A stretch of DNA of 56,780 nucleotides. It comes from Nitrospirota bacterium. Its GTDB lineage: Bacteria > Nitrospirota > Thermodesulfovibrionia > Thermodesulfovibrionales > UBA1546. Shown one piece after another: positions 19,309 through 43,562 of this stretch. The stretch lies in NCBI GenBank assembly GCA_021824065.1, contig JAKALU010000005.1, forward strand, positions 1 through 56,780, in the 5' to 3' direction. Under the pieces are notes generated by a model. It was not told the origin of the DNA. It saw only the letters and a list, made by a program, of their open reading frames with translations, and made no database searches. A program made the position numbers and the translations under genes. Each line of letters begins with the position of its first letter. The stretch's first letter is position 1.

Positions 19309-19776
19309 TTAAAAAAGCTTTGCCCCTTTTTCTATATCTTCGGTCTTTATTATCAGATTTTCATTTACAATACTGTTCTTAAGCAGAATAGGGCTGCAGT
19401 CTTTGTTTTCCCATACCTCGTCAGCAAGCCTGAACTTCAGGCTGCATTCATTGCATATGAGGTCTGTCCCTTCAACGCGATAGCCCTTTTTCTTTTTGTA
19501 ACATATATAACAGGCATCAAAATATGTGGATAAATCCCCTCTGCCGTCTGTTCTTACAAAAAAGTTTATGCGCTTGCCTGATTTTTTATAGGTGAAAAAA
19601 TGGACCTTTCCGTCGTTAATTTCTTTGATCGGTATCGTTATTATTCCGTCTTTAGGAGTGACTATCTTATGTTCTTTTGGCAGATTGCTGCAGCCGCAGA
19701 ATATTGCCAGAAAAGATAGCAAAAGCGAATAAAAGAAGATTCTTCTAAAATAAAAGCCTGTTTGTGTCTTTCTCAT
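19309..19776 (-). CDS. DUF2318-family lipoprotein
   Basis: 155 aa. A hydrophobic signal segment (residues 12-27) ends LAIFCGCSN, a likely lipoprotein cleavage site. The mature part has HFFTYKKSGKRINFFV, then DACYICYKKKKGY and LICNECSLKFRL, plus a later Cys, the metal-binding pattern of DUF2318. DUF2318 proteins commonly accompany FTR1/P19 iron uptake systems and FtsX-type permeases with a Cys-Cys motif; such permeases occur at 35713 and 39749 here. Convergent with hom. Exact function is not known. Confidence 0.8.
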   Translation of the reverse strand: MRKTQTGFYFRRIFFYSLLLSFLAIFCGCSNLPKEHKIVTPKDGIITIPIKEINDGKVHFFTYKKSGKRINFFVRTDGRGDLSTYFDACYICYKKKKGYRVEGTDLICNECSLKFRLADEVWENKDCSPILLKNSIVNENLIIKTEDIEKGAKLF

Positions 19777-34468: not shown

Positions 34469-35620
34469 ATGAAGAAAAGTTTTACGGTTATTTTGCTTCT
34501 GGTATTAGCCGCAATTAGCTATATAGTATTCAGTGGAGTCCCGGGTTACGGAGGGGCTACAGCTCCAGGTTATGGGGGTTCAACATCGACTGCTGCGTCT
34601 GCAGAAAAGGCAGTAGCGGTAGAAGCAAAAGAGATAAAGGCAGCCAAGGAACCAAAATTTAACGCTATTGCTTATATAGCAGGACACGGCGGTCATCTGG
34701 CAGTTATTGACCTCAGGACTATGAAGGCCCCGGTGGACATGGAAAAGGGCAGGATTGTTCTTACAGAAGCTGGCTCTGAGATGGAAGGCAAGATTGCCGG
34801 CATGAGCTTTGAAGAGGTTAAGAAGGCTGGCGGTTCTCACGGTCAAGCGCTCATAAAACAGAAGGGTAAAAAGGTTTTGGTTGCCGGTACATTGGCTGGC
34901 AATGTCTATAAGGTTGATCTCAGCACAGGGAAAAAGGAAGGACCCTTTAAGGTAGGAGAGAAGTTCTGCGGCGCTATAGTCGGCCCTGATGGCAATATTT
35001 ACCTTGAGGATATGGCAGACGGTCATATATACATTTGGGATGCAAACAAGTTGAAGACTGTAGACAAGATGCCTGTAGGCAAAGCGCTATGCGGTATCCA
35101 ATGGACTAAAGGTGCTAAGAAAGCATACATTACCGATATGCCTGTGGGTGTAGTTTACGTCTATGACTGGAAGACTAAGAAAAAGATAAAGGAAATCAGC
35201 AGCCCTGAGATGACATTTATTCACCAGGCCAGAATGACCCCTGATGGGAAATATCTCTGGGTAAGCGCTCCAAATGAGTTTGACCCAGGGCTTAAACCAG
35301 GCACACACAAGAGCCAGGTCATTATTATTGACACCGCCAAAGATGAGATCGTTAAACGTATAATTCTACCTGATAATGTAAGACCTCACGACTTTGCATT
35401 TACCAAAGACGGTAAATATGCTTTCCTTTCATCCAGGACATATGGGGATGACAGCACACTAAACATAATGGATATGAAAAACTACAATATTGTAGGGAAA
35501 GTGTCAGCATGCGCTGAATGCCATAAGGCTGCAGGAGTAACGGTCAAAGTCGATAAAGGCTCACCACTTCTTTGCGGTATAGAGGTTGATTGGAGTCCAG
35601 CAAAGGTGGCTAAGAAGTAA
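34469..35620 (+). CDS. Secreted beta-propeller protein with one C-terminal CXXCH heme site (copy 1)
   Basis: 383 aa. A signal peptide (residues 1-22) is followed by a Gly/Ala-rich linker (GYGGATAPGYGGST) and a YVTN/cytochrome d1-like propeller with repeats such as NAIAYIAGHGGHLAVIDLRT, GKKVLVAGTLAGNVYKVDLS, GAKKAYITDMPVGVVYVYD, GKYLWVSAPNEFDPG and GKYAFLSSRTYGDDSTLNIM. CAECHK near 348 is a single c-heme motif. It should act in the periplasm or be surface-anchored. Weakly similar to the protein at 38530 (AGHGGH near the N-terminus, CXXCH and LLCGI/ILCGL at the C-terminus). It has its own terminator and precedes an ABC permease. Confidence 0.8.
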   Translation: MKKSFTVILLLVLAAISYIVFSGVPGYGGATAPGYGGSTSTAASAEKAVAVEAKEIKAAKEPKFNAIAYIAGHGGHLAVIDLRTMKAPVDMEKGRIVLTEAGSEMEGKIAGMSFEEVKKAGGSHGQALIKQKGKKVLVAGTLAGNVYKVDLSTGKKEGPFKVGEKFCGAIVGPDGNIYLEDMADGHIYIWDANKLKTVDKMPVGKALCGIQWTKGAKKAYITDMPVGVVYVYDWKTKKKIKEISSPEMTFIHQARMTPDGKYLWVSAPNEFDPGLKPGTHKSQVIIIDTAKDEIVKRIILPDNVRPHDFAFTKDGKYAFLSSRTYGDDSTLNIMDMKNYNIVGKVSACAECHKAAGVTVKVDKGSPLLCGIEVDWSPAKVAKK

Positions 35621-35640
35621 ATTTAAAACTCTGAACTTAA

Positions 35641-35674
35641 GGGCTGGAGAATGTAAAGTTTTCCAGCCCTTTTT
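35641..35674 (+). terminator. Rho-independent terminator
   Basis: GGGCTGGA (35641-35648) pairs with TCCAGCCC (35662-35669), followed by five T. It lies 20 bases after the propeller gene stop. Confidence 0.85.
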
Positions 35675-35712
35675 ATGTCAATAGACATTACTATTGTATA
35701 ATTAACTATATA

Positions 35713-36918
35713 ATGAAAAAGATAAAAATCTTCAGCCTTGCCGTAAGAAACCTGAGAAGAAAATTCGTCCGTACATTTGTATTACTTCTGGTAGTTGCAG
35801 TAGTTACCGGCACATTGCTCAGTGCGACTATTTTCATAACCGGGATGAAGAATGCCATGAAGATTGGCACCTATCGACTTGGTGCAGATGTGCTTGTAGT
35901 ACCCGAGAAAAATGAATCTCAGGCAAAAGCAGCGCTGCTTGCTGGTGAGCCAACAAGCTTTTATATGGATAGGGATGTCCTTGAAAAAGTAAAAAAGATT
36001 GAAGGGGTAAAAAAGGCGTCTCCGCAGCTTTTTCTCAAACCATCGTCTTTCACCTGTTGTTTTAATGTAGATGTTTTTCTTGTGGCCTTTGAACCTAAGA
36101 CAGATTTTACAATAACTCCGTGGCTTGAAAAAAATCTTAAGAAACCTCTTGCAGGCAATGAGATTATAACAGGCAGGGAAATACCAGTTGTTGTAGGGGA
36201 TACAATCCCATTTTTTGGAGCACCCTTTAACGTTGTTGGCACTATGGAACCTACAGGCATGAAATTTTTTGACCAGACGGTTTTTATGACTATGGACGCA
36301 GCATATACCATGGCTGAAAACTCAAAGACTAAGTCAATGCAGCCAATCGATATAGCTAAGGATAAGATTTCAGCAGTGCTGGTTCAGGTTCAGGAAGGCT
36401 ATACCCCTGAAAGGGTTGCTATAAGAATAGAACATGATATTGAGGGGATTAAGGCGATCGCATCAGACGAGGTTATAAGTACGGTGCGAAGACAATTGAA
36501 CGGACTGCTGAGGGGGATACTCGCAATAAGCGCTGTATTATGGATACTGGCTCTTTTAATGATGGGTTTTGCATTCTATATGATTGTTAATGAGAGACAG
36601 AGGGAACTCGGTCTGCTAAGAGCGATGGGAGCGAAAAAGGGACATATTTTCAGCCTGATAATAACAGAGGCTGTCATGATATCTTTTATAGGCGGTGTTA
36701 TCGGATTAATAAGCGGTTATATGCTTTTGCTTACGTTTAAAAGTCTTATACTCCACAGCCTGAAATTACCATACCTTTTACCTCCTGTAATGGTTCTTAT
36801 TGAACTTCTGTCCGGTGCAATTATATTCTCTATGCTTACAGGGCTTCTATCATCCCTGTTGCCTGCTGTCTCTGCAAGCAAGATGGAGCCGTATGAAGCA
36901 ATTAGAAAAGGAGAATAA
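35713..36918 (+). CDS. FtsX/MacB-like ABC permease with Cys-Cys motif (module 1)
   Basis: 401 aa. TM1 is at about 20-40, then an extracytoplasmic domain, and three C-terminal TMs at about 275-300, 325-345 and 362-388. RLGADVLVVPEKNES, SFYMDRDVLEKVKKIEGVKKASPQL and SFTCCFNVDVFLVAFEP are shared with the permease at 39749; the Cys-Cys pair is in the outer domain. ERQRELGLLRAMGAKKGHI is the FtsX-family cytoplasmic coupling segment. The type recalls the Cys-Cys permeases beside FTR1/P19 iron systems. Likely an exporter or a mechanotransmission complex with the ATPase at 37617; substrate unknown. Confidence 0.88.
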   Translation: MKKIKIFSLAVRNLRRKFVRTFVLLLVVAVVTGTLLSATIFITGMKNAMKIGTYRLGADVLVVPEKNESQAKAALLAGEPTSFYMDRDVLEKVKKIEGVKKASPQLFLKPSSFTCCFNVDVFLVAFEPKTDFTITPWLEKNLKKPLAGNEIITGREIPVVVGDTIPFFGAPFNVVGTMEPTGMKFFDQTVFMTMDAAYTMAENSKTKSMQPIDIAKDKISAVLVQVQEGYTPERVAIRIEHDIEGIKAIASDEVISTVRRQLNGLLRGILAISAVLWILALLMMGFAFYMIVNERQRELGLLRAMGAKKGHIFSLIITEAVMISFIGGVIGLISGYMLLLTFKSLILHSLKLPYLLPPVMVLIELLSGAIIFSMLTGLLSSLLPAVSASKMEPYEAIRKGE

Positions 36919-36928
36919 GGGAGGAGAA

Positions 36929-37570
36929 ATGAAAATAGGTAATTTAATGATGACTATAAGGCTATGTATACCGGGTATGCTGATTATTGTTTTGCTATCA
37001 GTTATTTCATGCAAGAAGGAACAACCTATTCCAGAAAAAAGGCCGGTTCAGGCTATAAATCCATATTCAAGCGATTCTGTTTTTGCTGAAGTGAAAGAGA
37101 AATTACAAAAAAATCCCGATGATGTGGATGCACTATATCATCTTGCCGACCTGTATGACCGTAACGGGCAATATGCCGAAGCCATAGATGCATATAAAAA
37201 AGTGATAAAATTAAAGCCCGATATGGGATATGCATATTTTAAAATGGGCACAGCATATGATCGTCTCAATCAGCCTGCGGAGGCAATAAATGCGTTAAAG
37301 AAGGCTATAAAATATATGCCCAACTATGCAGCGTCATACAATAATCTTGGTATAGCTTACGGCAAGCTTAATAGATTTAATGAAGAAATAGCAGCTCTGA
37401 AAAAGGCGATAAAACTAAGGCCGACATATTCATCAGCCAGATATAATTTAGGTATCACATATTTAAAGACAGGGAATAAAAAGGCTTCTATGCAGGAATA
37501 TGAATCCTTAAAGAATTTTGACGAAGGCGCTGCAGAGGCTTTATTAAAAGAGATAAAAAGTGCTTCATAA
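36929..37570 (+). CDS. TPR-repeat lipoprotein
   Basis: 213 aa from ATG 36929 with GGGAGGAG 3-4 bases upstream. The signal peptide ends LLSVISC, a lipobox with Cys28. Four to five TPR units follow (DALYHLADLYDRNGQYAEAI, GYAYFKMGTAYDRLNQPAEA, AASYNNLGIAYGKLNRFNEE, SARYNLGITYLKTGNKKA). It should be an envelope scaffold for the permease or propeller protein; module 2 lacks an equivalent. The 3' end carries a 22-bp tandem duplication across the stop. Confidence 0.88.
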   Translation: MKIGNLMMTIRLCIPGMLIIVLLSVISCKKEQPIPEKRPVQAINPYSSDSVFAEVKEKLQKNPDDVDALYHLADLYDRNGQYAEAIDAYKKVIKLKPDMGYAYFKMGTAYDRLNQPAEAINALKKAIKYMPNYAASYNNLGIAYGKLNRFNEEIAALKKAIKLRPTYSSARYNLGITYLKTGNKKASMQEYESLKNFDEGAAEALLKEIKSAS

Positions 37571-37590
37571 AGAGATAAAAAGTGCTTCAT
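37547..37590 (+). repeat. Perfect 22-bp tandem duplication across a stop codon
   Basis: A 22-base unit occupies 37547-37568 and 37569-37590, identical in both. The first copy encodes the last residues KEIKSAS of the TPR protein; the second lies after the stop. Confidence 0.95.
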
Positions 37591-37616
37591 AAGGACTAAG
37601 CTAAAAAATATAGTAT

Positions 37617-38282
37617 ATGATTGAGATCAAAAATCTTATAAAAACTTACAACATAGGCGGGCAGACCATTAAGGCTGTGGATAATGTAAGTTTGATGATT
37701 GAAAAAGGAGATCTCGTATCAATAGTCGGACATTCTGGCAGCGGGAAGACCACACTCTTGAGTCTAATAGGGGGGTTGACAATGCCTGCTTCGGGCTCTG
37801 TCATAATTGACGGAATAGATATATGGTCTATGGGCGATGACAAGCTTTCTGAGTTCAGGAATAAAAAGATCAGCTTTATATACCAGTTTTCGAGCCTTAT
37901 TCCAACCCTGACAGTTCTTGAAAACGTGATGCTTCCAACTGCTTTTGGATCTCATGATGAAAATGCAGAAGAGTATGCAAAGAAACTTCTTGATACAGTT
38001 GGACTGAAAGATAAGATGACTTCATATCCCTCACAACTTTCAGGCGGGCAGCAAAGGAGGGTTGCTATTGCAAGGGCATTTATTAATAAACCCGAGATTA
38101 TCCTTGCTGACGAACCCACCGGAGACCTCGATGAGGAGACAGAAAAAGAAATCTTAAGCCTTTTTCACAGTATGAATAGAGAAAAAAATATAACTTTTGT
38201 TATCGTAACCCACGATAAGGAGATTGCAAACCAGGCCAAAAGGAAATTAAAAATGGGTAATGGTTCTATTAAAGAACTATAA
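37617..38282 (+). CDS. LolD/MacB-type ABC ATPase (module 1)
   Basis: 221 aa. Walker A VGHSGSGKTTLLSLIGG, Q-loop YQFSSLIPTLTVLENV, signature LSGGQQRRVAIARAF, Walker B EIILADEPTGDLD, and H-loop VTHDKEIA. It matches the FtsX-class partners of MacB/LolCDE systems. It should pair with the permease at 35713, with the TPR lipoprotein gene between them. 61% or so of positions look shared with the module 2 ATPase by eye. Confidence 0.93.
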   Translation: MIEIKNLIKTYNIGGQTIKAVDNVSLMIEKGDLVSIVGHSGSGKTTLLSLIGGLTMPASGSVIIDGIDIWSMGDDKLSEFRNKKISFIYQFSSLIPTLTVLENVMLPTAFGSHDENAEEYAKKLLDTVGLKDKMTSYPSQLSGGQQRRVAIARAFINKPEIILADEPTGDLDEETEKEILSLFHSMNREKNITFVIVTHDKEIANQAKRKLKMGNGSIKEL

Positions 38283-38296
38283 AGCTGCCTGCAAGT

Positions 38297-38335
38297 GAAG
38301 CTCTCCCCCCGACCGAAAGTCGGAGGGAGAGCTTC
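38297..38335 (+). terminator. Long hairpin after module 1
   Basis: A 17-bp stem with one mismatch (GAAGCTCTCCCCCCGAC with GTCGGAGGGAGAGCTTC, loop CGAAA), 14 bases after the ATPase stop. There is no T run, so termination efficiency is uncertain. Confidence 0.6.
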
Positions 38336-38381
38336 TGCTACCATCCATGTAAAATAGAAAGTCTAAACTTTAAACTTCAGG

Positions 38382-38409
38382 TTGACAAAGTTGGAATTGA
38401 TTATAAATA
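38382..38409 (+). promoter_or_regulatory. Promoter of propeller-cytochrome gene 2
   Basis: TTGACA (38382-38387), 16-base spacer, TAAATA (38404-38409), preceded by TTTAAACTTCAGG. The leader of about 115 bases contains AAAAGGAGGTGAT (about 38450) far upstream of the real ribosome site GGGGAGGAAG before the ATG. Confidence 0.5.
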
Positions 38410-38529
38410 CTATCCACAGAATATCTTTTATATCTTTGCGTAAATATAAAAGGAGGTGATATAGCAGGAAGCATTTGAGGGTTGTTTTTTGAAATTCTTA
38501 AAAAATAAAAGAAACGGGGAGGAAGTATA

Positions 38530-39666
38530 ATGAAAAAAGTTTTGGTATTGCTTTTTGCTGTATTGTTTGTCTGCGCAGGATACCTTGCCTTCACTACCAT
38601 TGATTCCAAGACACCCGCTGTTGTAGCTGCAAAAAAGACATATTCAGCCACTGTTTATGTAGCTGGACACGGTGGTCACTTTGCCAAGGCAGATGTGACT
38701 ATAGACCCAAATGACGCTGATAACCCGATAAAGATAAACAGTCTTGATAAGGTTGATATCGGGACAACAGCAACCCACAAAACCCATGATGCGCGTATAG
38801 ACGCCACTGACAGCAACATTCTATTCTGGTCAACATATGCGTTAGATGACAAAGGAAAGCAGCATGTGGGCAAGTCCGACCTGAAAACAGGCAAGGTTAT
38901 TACGGATATAGCGATGGATCCAGACCCAAGGGCTCCTGGAAAGACAGGACCGATTTACTGTGCATCAGGGCAGAGCAAAAAAGATTTTATGCCGGTATTT
39001 ATGGGTAGCGAGGCATATGTCGATGTATTTGATAAGAAAACAATGGAACATAAACACAGGGTGTTTATAAGCGACCTCGGCTATAAGCCTGGCACCTATC
39101 AGTTTTTGCATGGGATTAACTCCAATGATATGAAGAAATTCCTTCTCACCATAACTATGAAGGGTGAGGATGGGAAGATGAACGGGAAGCTGGACTTTGT
39201 AATGGTTGATCTCCCATCCCTTGAGAAGGGCAAATTCAAGGAGCTTGCAAGAAACACATTGAGCGGCGAACCTGGAAAGACCATCACCTTCAGACAGTAT
39301 TTCAGCAAGGATGATAAATTAATCTTTCAGTCAGCTGCAGACAGAGTCTGGGTAATGGATGCAGCCACCCTTAAGCTCGTAGATGAAAAAACGACAGGCG
39401 CTAATGGTCAGAACCATGATGTAATGCCAACCCCTGATGGTAAATATGCTCTCCTGACCCTTAGAACCACTACCGCAGCAGTTGGTGCGGATGGGAAGGC
39501 AATTGAGGGCAAAACCATCACAGATGGTACATTGATGCTCTATGATGCTGATGCCAAAAAACTCGTGGGCAAACCTACATCAACCTGTTTAGGATGTCAC
39601 CAAAACATGGCACTTGGTGATAAGAATGCGATTCTTTGCGGCTTAGACGCCAACTATAAAAAATAA
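38530..39666 (+). CDS. Secreted beta-propeller protein with one C-terminal CXXCH heme site (copy 2)
   Basis: 378 aa. Signal peptide residues 1-22, then TYSATVYVAGHGGHFAKADV. Propeller-like repeats include HDARIDATDSNILFWSTYAL, KLIFQSAADRVWVMDAATLK and GKYALLTLRTTTAAVGADGK. CLGCHQ near 353 is the single heme-c motif and ILCGLDANYKK the end. It is a diverged paralogue of the protein at 34469 with the same start/end landmarks. It has its own promoter and a strong terminator, and precedes permease/ATPase module 2. A periplasmic electron or ligand carrier is likely; the substrate is unknown. Confidence 0.8.
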   Translation: MKKVLVLLFAVLFVCAGYLAFTTIDSKTPAVVAAKKTYSATVYVAGHGGHFAKADVTIDPNDADNPIKINSLDKVDIGTTATHKTHDARIDATDSNILFWSTYALDDKGKQHVGKSDLKTGKVITDIAMDPDPRAPGKTGPIYCASGQSKKDFMPVFMGSEAYVDVFDKKTMEHKHRVFISDLGYKPGTYQFLHGINSNDMKKFLLTITMKGEDGKMNGKLDFVMVDLPSLEKGKFKELARNTLSGEPGKTITFRQYFSKDDKLIFQSAADRVWVMDAATLKLVDEKTTGANGQNHDVMPTPDGKYALLTLRTTTAAVGADGKAIEGKTITDGTLMLYDADAKKLVGKPTSTCLGCHQNMALGDKNAILCGLDANYKK

Positions 39667-39679
39667 CTGCTTTCTTTTT

Positions 39680-39723
39680 ATTCTTTCTATGCGGCTGACA
39701 AAGCCGCATAGAAAGAATTTCTT
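39680..39723 (+). terminator. Strong Rho-independent terminator
   Basis: A 17-bp perfect stem (ATTCTTTCTATGCGGCT with AGCCGCATAGAAAGAAT, loop GACAA) followed by TTCTT, 13 bases after the propeller gene stop. Confidence 0.85.
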
Positions 39724-39748
39724 ATAATCATTTATAATAAATTAAAAT

Positions 39749-40945
39749 ATGATGAAAAAATTCACGCTATTTTCACTTGCGCTTAAAAACCTCAAAAGGA
39801 AGCCTTTAAGAACAAGTATACTGGTCATCGCGATAGGACTATTGGTATCTGCTTTTGTATTTGCATTATCTTTTGTCAGGCGCGTTGACTCAAGTATCAA
39901 AATTACTTCTGAACGGCTCGGCGCTGACCTGCTTATAGTACCTACAGGATCGAGAGGGGCAGCAGAAGATGTCCTGCTCGAAAATGAGGTGAAGTCATTT
40001 TATATGGATAAAGGTATTGTAGAAAGGGTGAAGAAGATCAAAGGTGTAGACGAATTAACATACCAGACCTATCTTGTTACCATAACAGGTGCTTGCTGTG
40101 ATGTGCCTGAGTCTATAGTTATTGCATTTAACCAGGATACTGATTTCATTATTAAGCCCTGGCTTAATAAAAAGTTGGGCAGGAGGCTTCAAAAAGGTGA
40201 AGCTATTGTTGGCAGTGAGTCGGCTTTTAACATCAGGATAGGGCTCACAGAGGTGGATAGCGTCCTGTTCGGGAATATGTTTAAAATGGTTGGTGTTCTC
40301 GACAAAACAGGAACAGGGCTTGATAACGCCATATTCATCGATGATGAAAATATAGCTGATATAGTGAGGGGAGGCAAGGCGAATATAAAATCAGGGCAGA
40401 TATCCCTCATTTTTGCAAAGATCAAAAAAGGTCATGATCCTTACAAGGTTGCCGGCGAGATTGAGGATTCCATAATAGAAGTAGACGCAGTAGCAAGAAA
40501 GGATATCGGCAAGAATATAATAAATACACTGAGAGATATAAACCGGATATTCTCTATTACAGTGATACTTGCCTCCATACTCTCTGTATTTCTTGTCTGG
40601 GCTGTTTTTTCTGCAATTGCTAATGAGAGGGCAAAAGAAATTGGAATCATGAGGGCTATTGGTGCAAAGGAATACCATGTTGTAAGGCTTTTTTTTCTTG
40701 AGGTTTTGGTTATCGGCAGTATTGGAAGTATCATCGGCATTATCTCCGGGACTGTCCTTTCTTTATTGATGGCAAAGAGTTTCACCATTCTGAAAAATTT
40801 AGCTGCGGACTTAAACACCGTGGAGCGTGTTTTCATAGCTACATTAAGTTTCTTGATTGGAACAGTGGTCTGTGTTGCTGGAGCCCTTTCACCAATCCAG
40901 AGAATAAAAAAACTGGAACCACTTTTAGCAATAAAAGAGGAATAA
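39749..40945 (+). CDS. FtsX/MacB-like ABC permease with Cys-Cys motif (module 2)
   Basis: 398 aa with the same plan as the permease at 35713: TM1 at about 22-42; outer domain with RLGADLLIVPTGSRG, SFYMDKGIVERVKKIKGV and TGACCDVPESIVIAF; and three C-terminal TMs. ERAKEIGIMRAIGAKEYHV is the coupling segment. The Cys-Cys pair is conserved, implying a redox or metal/heme function in the outer domain. One base separates its stop from the ATPase start. Confidence 0.88.
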   Translation: MMKKFTLFSLALKNLKRKPLRTSILVIAIGLLVSAFVFALSFVRRVDSSIKITSERLGADLLIVPTGSRGAAEDVLLENEVKSFYMDKGIVERVKKIKGVDELTYQTYLVTITGACCDVPESIVIAFNQDTDFIIKPWLNKKLGRRLQKGEAIVGSESAFNIRIGLTEVDSVLFGNMFKMVGVLDKTGTGLDNAIFIDDENIADIVRGGKANIKSGQISLIFAKIKKGHDPYKVAGEIEDSIIEVDAVARKDIGKNIINTLRDINRIFSITVILASILSVFLVWAVFSAIANERAKEIGIMRAIGAKEYHVVRLFFLEVLVIGSIGSIIGIISGTVLSLLMAKSFTILKNLAADLNTVERVFIATLSFLIGTVVCVAGALSPIQRIKKLEPLLAIKEE

Positions 40946-40946
40946 T

Positions 40947-41621
40947 TTGTCACAGATAGAGATTATAGACATTACTAAGATCTATTCGATAGATAGTTTG
41001 AATATCAATGCTGTTGATAATGTTTCATTAAGGGTGGAGAAGGGTGAGTTCTTGTCTATAGTAGGGCATTCAGGCTCTGGCAAGACGACCCTGATCTCTA
41101 TTATCGGGGGTATAATAAGACCTTCCTCAGGAAAGATACTGTTTGATGGAACAGATATCTTTTCTTTCAATGACGAAAAATTATCGGGATACAGGAGCGA
41201 GAAAATCGGTTTTATGTTTCAGTTCTCAAGCCTTTTGCCGATTCTTACTGCAAAGGAGAATGTCCTTCTCCCGTGTCTTTTCAGCCCGGCGAAGAGGTCA
41301 GATAATGAAAAAAAGGCAATAGAATATCTTAATATGGTAGGTCTGAGTGATAAGATAAATGCATATTCATCACACCTCTCGGGAGGGCAGCAGAGGAGGG
41401 TTGCCATTGCGCGTGCATTGATGAACGACCCAGAAGTCATACTCGCTGATGAGCCCACAGGCGACCTTGATGAAAAGACAGAGGCTGATATAATGAAGTT
41501 CTTTAAGATAATGAATGAAGAAAGGGATATAACCTTTATTATGGTTACTCATAATACAGAGCTTGCAAGGCAGACTAAACGACAGTTGAAAATGAGTAAT
41601 GGTTCGATTAAGGAATTATAA
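40947..41621 (+). CDS. LolD/MacB-type ABC ATPase (module 2)
   Basis: 224 aa with a TTG start directly after the permease stop. Walker A VGHSGSGKTTLISIIGG, Q-loop FQFSSLLPILTAKENV, signature LSGGQQRRVAIARAL, Walker B EVILADEPTGDLD, H-loop VTHNTELA. Closely related to the module 1 ATPase, down to the shared C-terminus NGSIKEL, supporting duplication of the whole module. Confidence 0.93.
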   Translation: MSQIEIIDITKIYSIDSLNINAVDNVSLRVEKGEFLSIVGHSGSGKTTLISIIGGIIRPSSGKILFDGTDIFSFNDEKLSGYRSEKIGFMFQFSSLLPILTAKENVLLPCLFSPAKRSDNEKKAIEYLNMVGLSDKINAYSSHLSGGQQRRVAIARALMNDPEVILADEPTGDLDEKTEADIMKFFKIMNEERDITFIMVTHNTELARQTKRQLKMSNGSIKEL

Positions 41622-41688: not shown

Positions 41689-41991
41689 ATGATGAGAATA
41701 AGACCGAAAGTTAAAAAGGTGCTTGCATTGACATTACTATTAGGTCTGTTACCTTGTCTTGTGTTTCTCTTTTATCTTACTCCTGCCAAGAAAATGGATT
41801 CTTGTTTTTCATTTATGTCTATCGATGTCTGCGGCAGTCACGATATTCAGTCAACGGCTGTTTCGTTTGCGATTGTGCCTTTTTGCATACTTTTTATATT
41901 CTTTCTGACAATAAGCCGTCTCTCAGAATTTCAAACCTTTCTATACCGGGCAGTTCTCGCTTATTCACTGGATAAGCCCCCTTTAATTTAA
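41689..41991 (+). CDS. Small two-helix membrane protein, unknown
   Basis: 100 aa (or 99 from the second ATG). Helices at about 10-30 and 57-77. The loop between them carries Cys residues (KKMDSCFSFMSIDVCGSHD), and one more Cys lies in each helix region. No family recognised. It lies between the ABC module and the five-heme cytochrome, so a role in envelope redox chemistry is possible. Confidence 0.6.
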   Translation: MMRIRPKVKKVLALTLLLGLLPCLVFLFYLTPAKKMDSCFSFMSIDVCGSHDIQSTAVSFAIVPFCILFIFFLTISRLSEFQTFLYRAVLAYSLDKPPLI

Positions 41992-42362: not shown

Positions 42363-43562
42363 ATGAGGTTTTTGAAATTGATTCTCATACTGCTTTTTAT
42401 GGCAGTCCCGCTTATAGCATCTGCGGAGAAAGCAAAGACGATTGATGAACTTGCCAAAATGTACGACTCATCAAGGTGTAAGGAATGCCATGAAAGTATT
42501 TACAAACAGTGGGAAAATTCTCATCATGCAAGGCCATTGATGGGTGTAAAAGGCGGCTTGATGCTGACACCCCTTGCTACAAAGGGTGCAACCGCTTTTT
42601 CTCCCGATGACCCTAAGAAGGCAACGATAAAGAATTTCCCGTGCTTTAAATGCCATCTCCCGCAGGCAATTACATCAGCAGAGGATTCGGTTGCAGTTGA
42701 GTTAGCCGAGGCGCTTCTTGCAAAAGATTCGACTAAAGTCGCTAAGCTTCAGATCACCTGTATTGTCTGTCACAATACAAAGGCGATTATTCACAAACGC
42801 GAATTAGGCGAGCCAAAGGCAGGCGTTCTTTACAGCTCAAAGGCAGTAGATTCTCACCCTGACGGGATATTCAAAAAAGTTGAAAAGAGCGCTATCATGA
42901 AGGATTCAGTATACTGCGGGCAGTGCCACGGCCTCGGCCCGAATCTCGAGTTTGACCAGGCATTCCAGTGCGCAAACCTTTATGGAAGCTATCTCCATTC
43001 CTACATACCTTCAGGCGCGTCACAGACATGTATGGACTGTCATATGCAGAAGGGTGATCATCTTATAGCCCCTAACTTTAATGACGATAAGGGAACATCA
43101 GAGCTTCTTGCAAAGGCAATCAGCCTCGATGTCCAGACTTTAGGATACGAATGGTTGCTAAAGGCAGGAACATATGTTCCTAAGGTCGTGGTTAATACGA
43201 AGATAACCACAACCGCTGGCCACAGAATCCCTGACGGCTGACCATCGCACAACAGAGTGGTCATGGTAGTGACCGCAAAGGCAGCAGATGGTAAAGAGTT
43301 GGGCAAAGTTGAAAAACACTATCACCCTCAGGCAACAAACTGCCGTGATACAAAGATGAGGTATGGTGCACAGTGGAAAGTTGCAAACCTGCGTGACACA
43401 AGCCTACAGCCTGCTCAGGCCAAAAAAGAGTCAATAGAATTTGATCTTCCAGCAGGCGTAAGAGAAGCAACTGTGACAGTTGATCTTTTCTACGAGAATG
43501 TCAATCCTGGTAATAAGTACTCAATACATTCGATAACAAGGAAAGTATCTCTCGACAGATAG
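42363..43562 (+). CDS. Five-heme cytochrome c, probable selenoprotein (in-frame TGA at codon 293)
   Basis: 399 residues if TGA 43239-43241 is read through. Signal peptide residues 1-21. CXXCH motifs at 39-43, 94-98, 133-137, 185-189 and 223-227; this is a multiheme c554-like fold. The TGA follows TTTAGHRIPDG, and 106 well-formed codons continue (PSHNRVVMVVTAKAADGKEL onward) to a TAG stop, 18 bases before a perfect terminator. A SECIS-like stem lies 15 bases after the TGA. Start: AGGAGG 6-7 bases before ATG 42363. It should sit in the periplasm as an electron carrier or reductase. Alternatives: nonsense-mutated pseudogene, or a sequencing error. Confidence 0.78.
43239..43276 (+). promoter_or_regulatory. 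TGA codon and SECIS-like hairpin
   Basis: GTGGTCA (43257-43263) pairs with TGACCGC (43270-43276) over seven pairs including one G-U, with a six-base loop TGGTAG that has G at its second position. Stem starts 15 bases after the TGA and the loop 22 bases after, inside the spacing known for bacterial SECIS elements. TGACCA/TGGTCA across the codon gives an alternative outer pairing. Confidence 0.6.

Follow-up and report, generated by a model that had tools for sequence, protein, structure and literature searches.

Two adjacent gene units on a 56,780-nucleotide contig of a Nitrospirota bacterium (GCA_021824065.1, contig JAKALU010000005.1, positions 1 to 56,780; the window, C176 in our collection) each encode a propeller protein with a CXXCH motif and an ATP-binding cassette (ABC) transporter whose permease carries two adjacent cysteines (CC). 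Both units lie on the + strand between 34469 and 41621, and all of their genes were confirmed to be present. Unit 1 runs from propeller P1 through permease CC1 and a tetratricopeptide repeat (TPR) lipoprotein to ATPase ATP1; unit 2 consists of propeller P2, permease CC2 and ATPase ATP2. The pairing of propeller and CC permease is real and goes far beyond chance. We propose, with about an even chance of being right, that the propellers are periplasmic copper (possibly copper-heme c) redox proteins and that each has a dedicated type VII ABC transporter which would build its metal site. From the gene content, co-conservation, fold prediction, ligand conservation and the copper and sulfur neighbors in homologous loci, we infer bound copper, heme attachment, redox catalysis and the job of the transporter.

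Propeller and CC permease form an old, conserved pair

The window genome (2.73 Mb in 211 contigs, 96% complete) has its relatives in our named collection among the Nitrospirota, and co-occurrence was counted across 245 genomes of this phylum, partly as fragmented assemblies. A preliminary description of the locus had viewed it as an envelope system in which CC permease and propeller work as partners, an idea that would fail if the two never co-occurred elsewhere. They do co-occur: CC1-type permeases (39 genomes) are present in 29 of the 31 genomes with a P1-type propeller (Fisher p 7e-27), and CC2-type permeases (29 genomes) in 28 of the 31 with a P2-type propeller (p 2e-32), p-values which are not those of independent events because the genomes are related. 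The permease gene follows directly 3′ on the same strand of 55/66 propeller genes, in most cases after a gap of 67–190 bp, and several of the propeller genes lacking an adjacent permease lie near contig ends. The propeller was also present in most of another 80 named loci, collected via the permease, including records from Thermodesulfobacteriota, Myxococcota and Pseudomonadota. Neither a description nor a name for the pairing was found; this negative carries little weight, as the search covered open-licence papers only.

The two units had also been described as a tandem duplication. They are paralogous in the deep sense, but a recent duplication is ruled out by the low identity between units (25% for the propellers over 161 aligned columns, 33% for the permeases and 59% for the ATPases) and by the permease tree. 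In that quick tree, which has long outgroup branches, CC1 and CC2 fall into separate clades with Shimodaira-Hasegawa approximate likelihood-ratio test (SH-aLRT) support of 93 and 98, respectively. Each clade has orthologues from other families, and the CC1 clade spans several phyla. We conclude from the separate clades that the units are ancient paralogues. Synteny suggests an old neighborhood for the units as well: in loci L098, L100 and L101 the ExtKL cytochrome comes after unit 2, as it does in the window. The adjacency of the two units may itself be old, since the gene 5′ of P1, which we read as ligase D phosphoesterase-like, is found 5′ of P1 or of P2 in relatives; in the closed genome G014, by contrast, the units are 1.1 Mb apart.

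A version of the module with two propellers and two permeases occurs in several Thermodesulfobacteriota and Myxococcota loci. In L154 (10112–11242) and L157 (13830–14777), a P1-CC1-ATPase set is followed by a 566-aa CC permease and then by a divergent second CXXCH propeller.

The propellers carry conserved His and Cys residues around the predicted pore

The N-termini of P1 and P2 (MKKSFTVILLLVLAA and MKKVLVLLFAVLFV) lack a twin arginine. P1 has Pfam matches to propeller families and P2 matches almost nothing in Pfam; a profile alignment joins the two over the whole length (E 4e-29). AlphaFold models built from 13-sequence alignments gave a propeller fold for both, with a mean predicted local distance difference test score (pLDDT) of 81.9 for P1 and 86.9 for P2. 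The CXXCH region of the models is less certain (block means of about 60–80 pLDDT).

CXXCH is invariant in 98/98 propellers of the two types. Among the 77 P1-type sequences H76 and H252 are likewise at 100%, C167 and C208 at 96%, and H307 and C369 at 94%. In the 21 P2-type sequences H50, H86, C144, H194, H296 and C370 are all at 100%. The conserved His and Cys of P1 come at about one per blade, most of them at the start of the inner strand in the predicted model, and the residues H76-H124-C167-C208-H252-H307-H352 are spaced by 48, 43, 41, 44, 55, and 45 positions. The profile alignment pairs H124 with H86, C167 with C144, C208 with H194, H307 with H296 and CXXCH with CXXCH, and places H252 of P1 on F254 of P2. 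One heme c, predicted from the CXXCH motif, is probably attached there, near the pore mouth, and the pore itself looks suited to a metal, probably copper.

The propellers resemble NosZ and TcDH but belong to neither family

P1 aligned with the profile of nitrous oxide reductase (NosZ, clades I/II) at E 7.5e-6 over 334 columns, with H307 on NosZ H316. By its place among the invariant histidines we take H316 to correspond to the CuZ ligand H326 of P. stutzeri. The C-terminal profile of P1 found thiocyanate dehydrogenase (TcDH; E 5e-8 to 2e-6) and NosZ (E 1e-5). H307 aligned with TcDH His482, a listed active-site residue (position hand-counted from the alignment), and this is the sole one of the 13 listed TcDH active-site residues to be aligned with some confidence. 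Blade repeats make a shift by one blade possible in these alignments. The TcDH and NosZ structures aligned with the models over 267–288 residues at Z of about 19–22.

Family scores rule out membership in NosZ or in the lactonase-type L-NosZ. Neither propeller gave a NosZ family hit above the NCBIfam cut-off, and the L-NosZ model (NF052460; curated cut-off 700) gave 48.7 bits for P1 and no match for P2. No cupredoxin family match for a C-terminal CuA domain was found in P1 or P2, both of which end soon after the propeller. True L-NosZ (clade III) genes are present in a few other Nitrospirota (L189 and L190, in genomes G002 and G012), scoring up to 751 bits. We also rejected the CC permease as a general NosZ partner, as the NosZ and L-NosZ loci examined contain no CC permease.

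The units share with the NosZ and L-NosZ systems (with NosL and NosDFY) a seven-bladed periplasmic propeller, pore histidines, a dedicated ABC machine and, in homologous loci, NosL. Unlike NosZ, the propellers are ∼380 aa long and without a CuA domain, their pore residues include Cys, and they carry CXXCH; the permease is of the MacB/FtsX type. TcDH is a copper propeller of sulfur-cycle bacteria with ABC subunits and copper genes beside it (PMC5328954, PMC6504805); a possible role in copper acquisition was suggested for the ABC transporter subunits in its operons (PMC5328954). TcDH has a twin-arginine (Tat) signal, which is missing from P1 and P2; these are also shorter than TcDH and carry, in addition, CXXCH and a C-terminal Cys. 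They are not a full match to TcDH or to the Fet iron system considered below.

The permeases form a type VII family with an invariant cysteine pair

Both CC1 and CC2 scored above the Pfam gathering score for the FtsX C-terminal domain and the MacB-like periplasmic core domain (MacB_PCD). The cysteine pair, noted earlier as a feature of the outer domain, falls inside the MacB_PCD stretch in both and is conserved in 126/126 related permeases. The domain topology and the LolD-like ATPase are shared with MacB, LolCDE, FtsEX and YbbAP-TesA, the last of which likewise pairs an ABC machine with a periplasmic enzyme (PMC12646458). The CC transporters differ from all four in the adjacent Cys pair, the propeller partner and scores under every family cut-off. 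The closest non-member of the CC family in the window genome is an FtsX-type permease on contig C144 (L212, 6855–10280), encoded with an ATPase, a small exported protein and a thioredoxin. An anti-phage link was dropped: in PADLOC the permease matched only the CARF-LolE membrane model, via the shared permease domain.

Copper and sulfur genes are enriched beside CC permeases

Neighbors of 79 named CC-permease loci were counted near (within 4 kb of the permease) and far (beyond), with similar DNA lengths scanned. The near versus far counts, which are not independent since relatives share loci, were 59 vs. 3 for the propeller, 22 vs. 0 for NosL, 6 vs. 0 for PCuAC, 18 vs. 0 for YedE and 10 vs. 2 for FtrD. 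Pfam confirmed the identity of NosL, PCuAC, FtrD, DUF4418 and YedE on examples. DUF4418 proteins and thioredoxin-like and DsrE-like proteins also recur beside CC loci.

NosL serves the CuZ site of NosZ as a Cu(I) chaperone (PMC6530538). Yet the window genome encodes NosL three times and gives no NosZ hit (TIGR04246 finds nothing), and G014, a single closed contig, has both modules, two NosL and no NosZ. NosL without NosZ suggests another copper client, for which the propeller is the natural candidate. A possible alternative client in the window genome is a set on contig C157 (L219, 3178–6895) made up of NosL, an FtsX-type permease without CC, an ATPase and a 333-aa membrane protein; related sets are present in L221 and L222. 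In a Chloroflexi locus (L183, 7302–11206), the CC permease is preceded by genes for PCuAC and for a membrane protein of 668 aa, in which a CuA-like Cys/His motif was recognized by eye.

Proposed function and points against it

In the proposed mechanism the propeller would be exported by the Sec route and fold into seven blades. About one conserved His or Cys per blade would sit where the inner strand begins, which is the place of the copper clusters in NosZ and TcDH. The heme c at CXXCH would exchange electrons with periplasmic cytochromes such as ExtKL. The CC permease and LolD-like ATPase, joined in unit 1 by the TPR lipoprotein, would form a type VII (MacB/FtsX-class) ABC machine whose adjacent periplasmic cysteines may bind Cu(I) or exchange a disulfide. 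ATP-driven movement would then load or repair the metal site, much as NosL/NosDFY do for NosZ, and units 1 and 2, as old paralogues, would serve different propellers. We favor a sulfur or selenium compound as the propeller substrate because of the YedE and DsrE-like neighbors, the resemblance to TcDH and the ExtKL cytochrome. More tentatively, and with the chances somewhat against it, the propellers may be a further class of copper propeller oxidoreductase beside NosZ and TcDH, having heme c on the same chain, a mixed His/Cys pore site and a metal centre built by an unnamed CC-type type VII ABC machine of several phyla.

Several observations weigh against a copper redox propeller with its own assembly machine. 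Cys replaces His at two pore positions in P1 and one in P2, so the pore site need not be copper. P2 aligned poorly with NosZ (E 0.02). Many unrelated propellers match the models at similar Z, so function cannot be read from the fold by itself. In about half of the CC loci all five accessory families are missing from the vicinity. Within the window the units have no copper chaperone beside them (NosL is encoded on other contigs), so the copper-neighbor evidence is by homology, and PCuAC is absent from the window genome. The Thermoleophilia CC permease-ATPase loci have no recognized propeller nearby; their neighbors are regulators and other genes.

Alternative explanations

The strongest rival, which we still consider unlikely, is a copper/thiol stress module in which the propeller would be a sensor, chaperone or thiol oxidase removing Cu(I) or reactive sulfur, repaired by the ABC transporter and with no part in respiratory catalysis. 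It draws on the same copper and sulfur neighbors and on the thioredoxin and DsrE-like ones, and SELENBP1 is a copper-dependent thiol oxidase (PMC10362175). Yet the conserved CXXCH and the nearby multiheme cytochromes suggest electron transfer, and neither a copper regulator nor a P-type ATPase turned up consistently beside the CC loci.

Iron or heme acquisition is less probable still. The propeller would serve as a periplasmic binding protein that carries heme, and the CC transporter would work like FetBCD, which is needed under iron limitation (PMC10783030). The FTR1/P19/DUF2318 systems are known as FetMP-FetABCDEF (PMC10783030, PMC6083913); the Campylobacter one resembles the CC loci in having an ABC transporter, there with two permeases, accompanied by thioredoxins and a DUF2318 protein. 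It had been pointed out that similar CC permeases accompany such systems. This holds in so far as FtrD/DUF2318 occurs beside several unit 2-type relatives. Thioredoxins recur too, and the ExtKL downstream of unit 2 belongs to a type that is Fur-regulated in Geobacter (PMC5877670). The link does not hold for FTR1 (PF03239), which has no match in the window genome, nor for the FetBC-like permease pair on contig C13, which is encoded with an ATPase and a FetA-like protein, lacks CC and falls outside the CC1 and CC2 clades. An FTR1-type iron system is ruled out on these grounds, and no propeller is reported for Fet. Over 220 residues, the FetA-like protein is 28% identical to a protein on C80 that contains DUF2318. 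The only FtrD in the window, a DUF2318/FtrD-like protein (19312–19776, − strand, 76.7 bits), is encoded about 15 kb 5′ of unit 1, next to amino-acid genes and outside any Fet cluster. According to the title of a reference in PMC10783030, P19 needs a copper site, so the FtrD link does not favor iron over copper. The enriched neighbors are copper chaperones and the sulfur transporter YedE, which leaves the earlier iron/heme-uptake link unsupported. Type VII permeases are not, to our knowledge, known as importers.

There is a small chance, slighter than that of iron or heme uptake, that an ordinary lipoprotein or lipid ABC transporter lies beside a generic YVTN propeller by accident. The ATPases are LolD-like (259.9 and 234 bits for ATP1/ATP2, below the cut-off of 307.75) and the TPR protein is a lipoprotein. 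Against this, propeller and permease co-occur (p < 1e-26) in a nearly constant gene order, the Cys pair is in every related permease, and the other family scores are all below cut-off as well (lolCE 40.9 vs. 362; MacB 44.7 vs. 966; FtsX 21.7–39.5 vs. 225–255). A d1-heme or other tetrapyrrole propeller of the NirF/NirN kind seems very improbable, for although P1 passes the Cytochrom_D1 (PF02239) gathering score (32.5 vs. 25.5 bits) and NirF is among the PDB matches, P2 has no Cytochrom_D1 match and surface-layer and hydrazine-synthase propellers score better than NirF.

Locus layout and the ExtKL selenocytochrome

The features of the two units and of the genes behind them are listed in Table 1. 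The gene content of the preliminary description was borne out in full (AGHGGH, CXXCH, terminators, permeases, ATPases and the TPR lipoprotein of unit 1). Its proposal of one promoter per unit fared poorly: promoter-like sites were near background (28 found vs. 20.2 ± 4.4 expected), and the promoter-site scan found a TTGACA site upstream of unit 2 and none of this type on the + strand upstream of unit 1. The strong terminator 3′ of each propeller gene suggests that more of the propeller is produced than of the transporter encoded behind it.

Table 1. Positions of the features of units 1 and 2 and of the downstream genes in the window.
Feature	Position	Strand	Remarks
P1, exported 7-bladed propeller (predicted), 383 aa	34469–35620	+	candidate pore ligands H76, H124, C167, C208, H252, H307, CXXCH 348–352, C369
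GHGGH motif of P1 (within AGHGGH)	34682–34696	+	H76 invariant, 77/77
CAECH (CXXCH) of P1	35510–35524	+	invariant, 77/77
Intrinsic terminator directly 3′ of P1, 14-pair stem	35639–35671	+	
CC1, type VII (MacB/FtsX-like) ABC permease, 401 aa	35713–36918	+	Pfam FtsX and MacB_PCD
Cys115-Cys116 of CC1	36055–36060	+	in periplasmic core domain
TPR lipoprotein, 213 aa, lipobox LSVISC	36929–37570	+	Pfam supports TPR
ATP1, LolD-like ABC ATPase, 221 aa	37617–38282	+	Pfam ABC_tran
P2, exported 7-bladed propeller (predicted) with AGHGGH, 378 aa	38530–39666	+	candidate ligands H50, H86, C144, H194, H296, CXXCH 353–357, C370
CLGCH (CXXCH) of P2	39586–39600	+	invariant, 21/21
Intrinsic terminator directly 3′ of P2, 17-pair stem	39680–39718	+	
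CC2, type VII ABC permease, 398 aa	39749–40945	+	Pfam FtsX and MacB_PCD
Cys116-Cys117 of CC2	40094–40099	+	within MacB_PCD stretch
ATP2, LolD-like ABC ATPase, 224 aa, TTG start	40947–41621	+	Pfam ABC_tran
Small exported protein with DVC motif	41689–41991	+	relative at same place in L101, E 2e-7, one pairwise comparison
ExtKL-type pentaheme cytochrome, in-frame UGA (selenocysteine, Sec) at 43239–43241	42363–43562	+	follows unit 2 in window, L098, L100, L101

Since the same gene order is repeated in relatives, unit 2 probably continues past 41621 with the small exported protein and then the ExtKL-type selenocytochrome (to 43562). The cytochrome is read through the in-frame UGA as Sec306 of the frame from 42324, and the RNA just 3′ of the UGA forms a strong stem-loop (z −3.98). 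A similarly split ExtKL frame is present in L098, L100 and L101. The ExtKL cluster of Geobacter has been linked to selenite reduction (PMC5877670).

Significance

Copper clusters inside a propeller pore are known from only a few enzymes, among them the sole enzyme known to remove N2O. If the copper propeller reading is true, a new pair of propellers in sulfur-cycling anaerobes, each with its own ABC machine, would point to an unrecognized periplasmic redox reaction. It would also make testable the role of type VII ABC transporters that lie beside metalloenzymes, as with TcDH and Fet, and the invariant CC pair offers a direct mutational handle.

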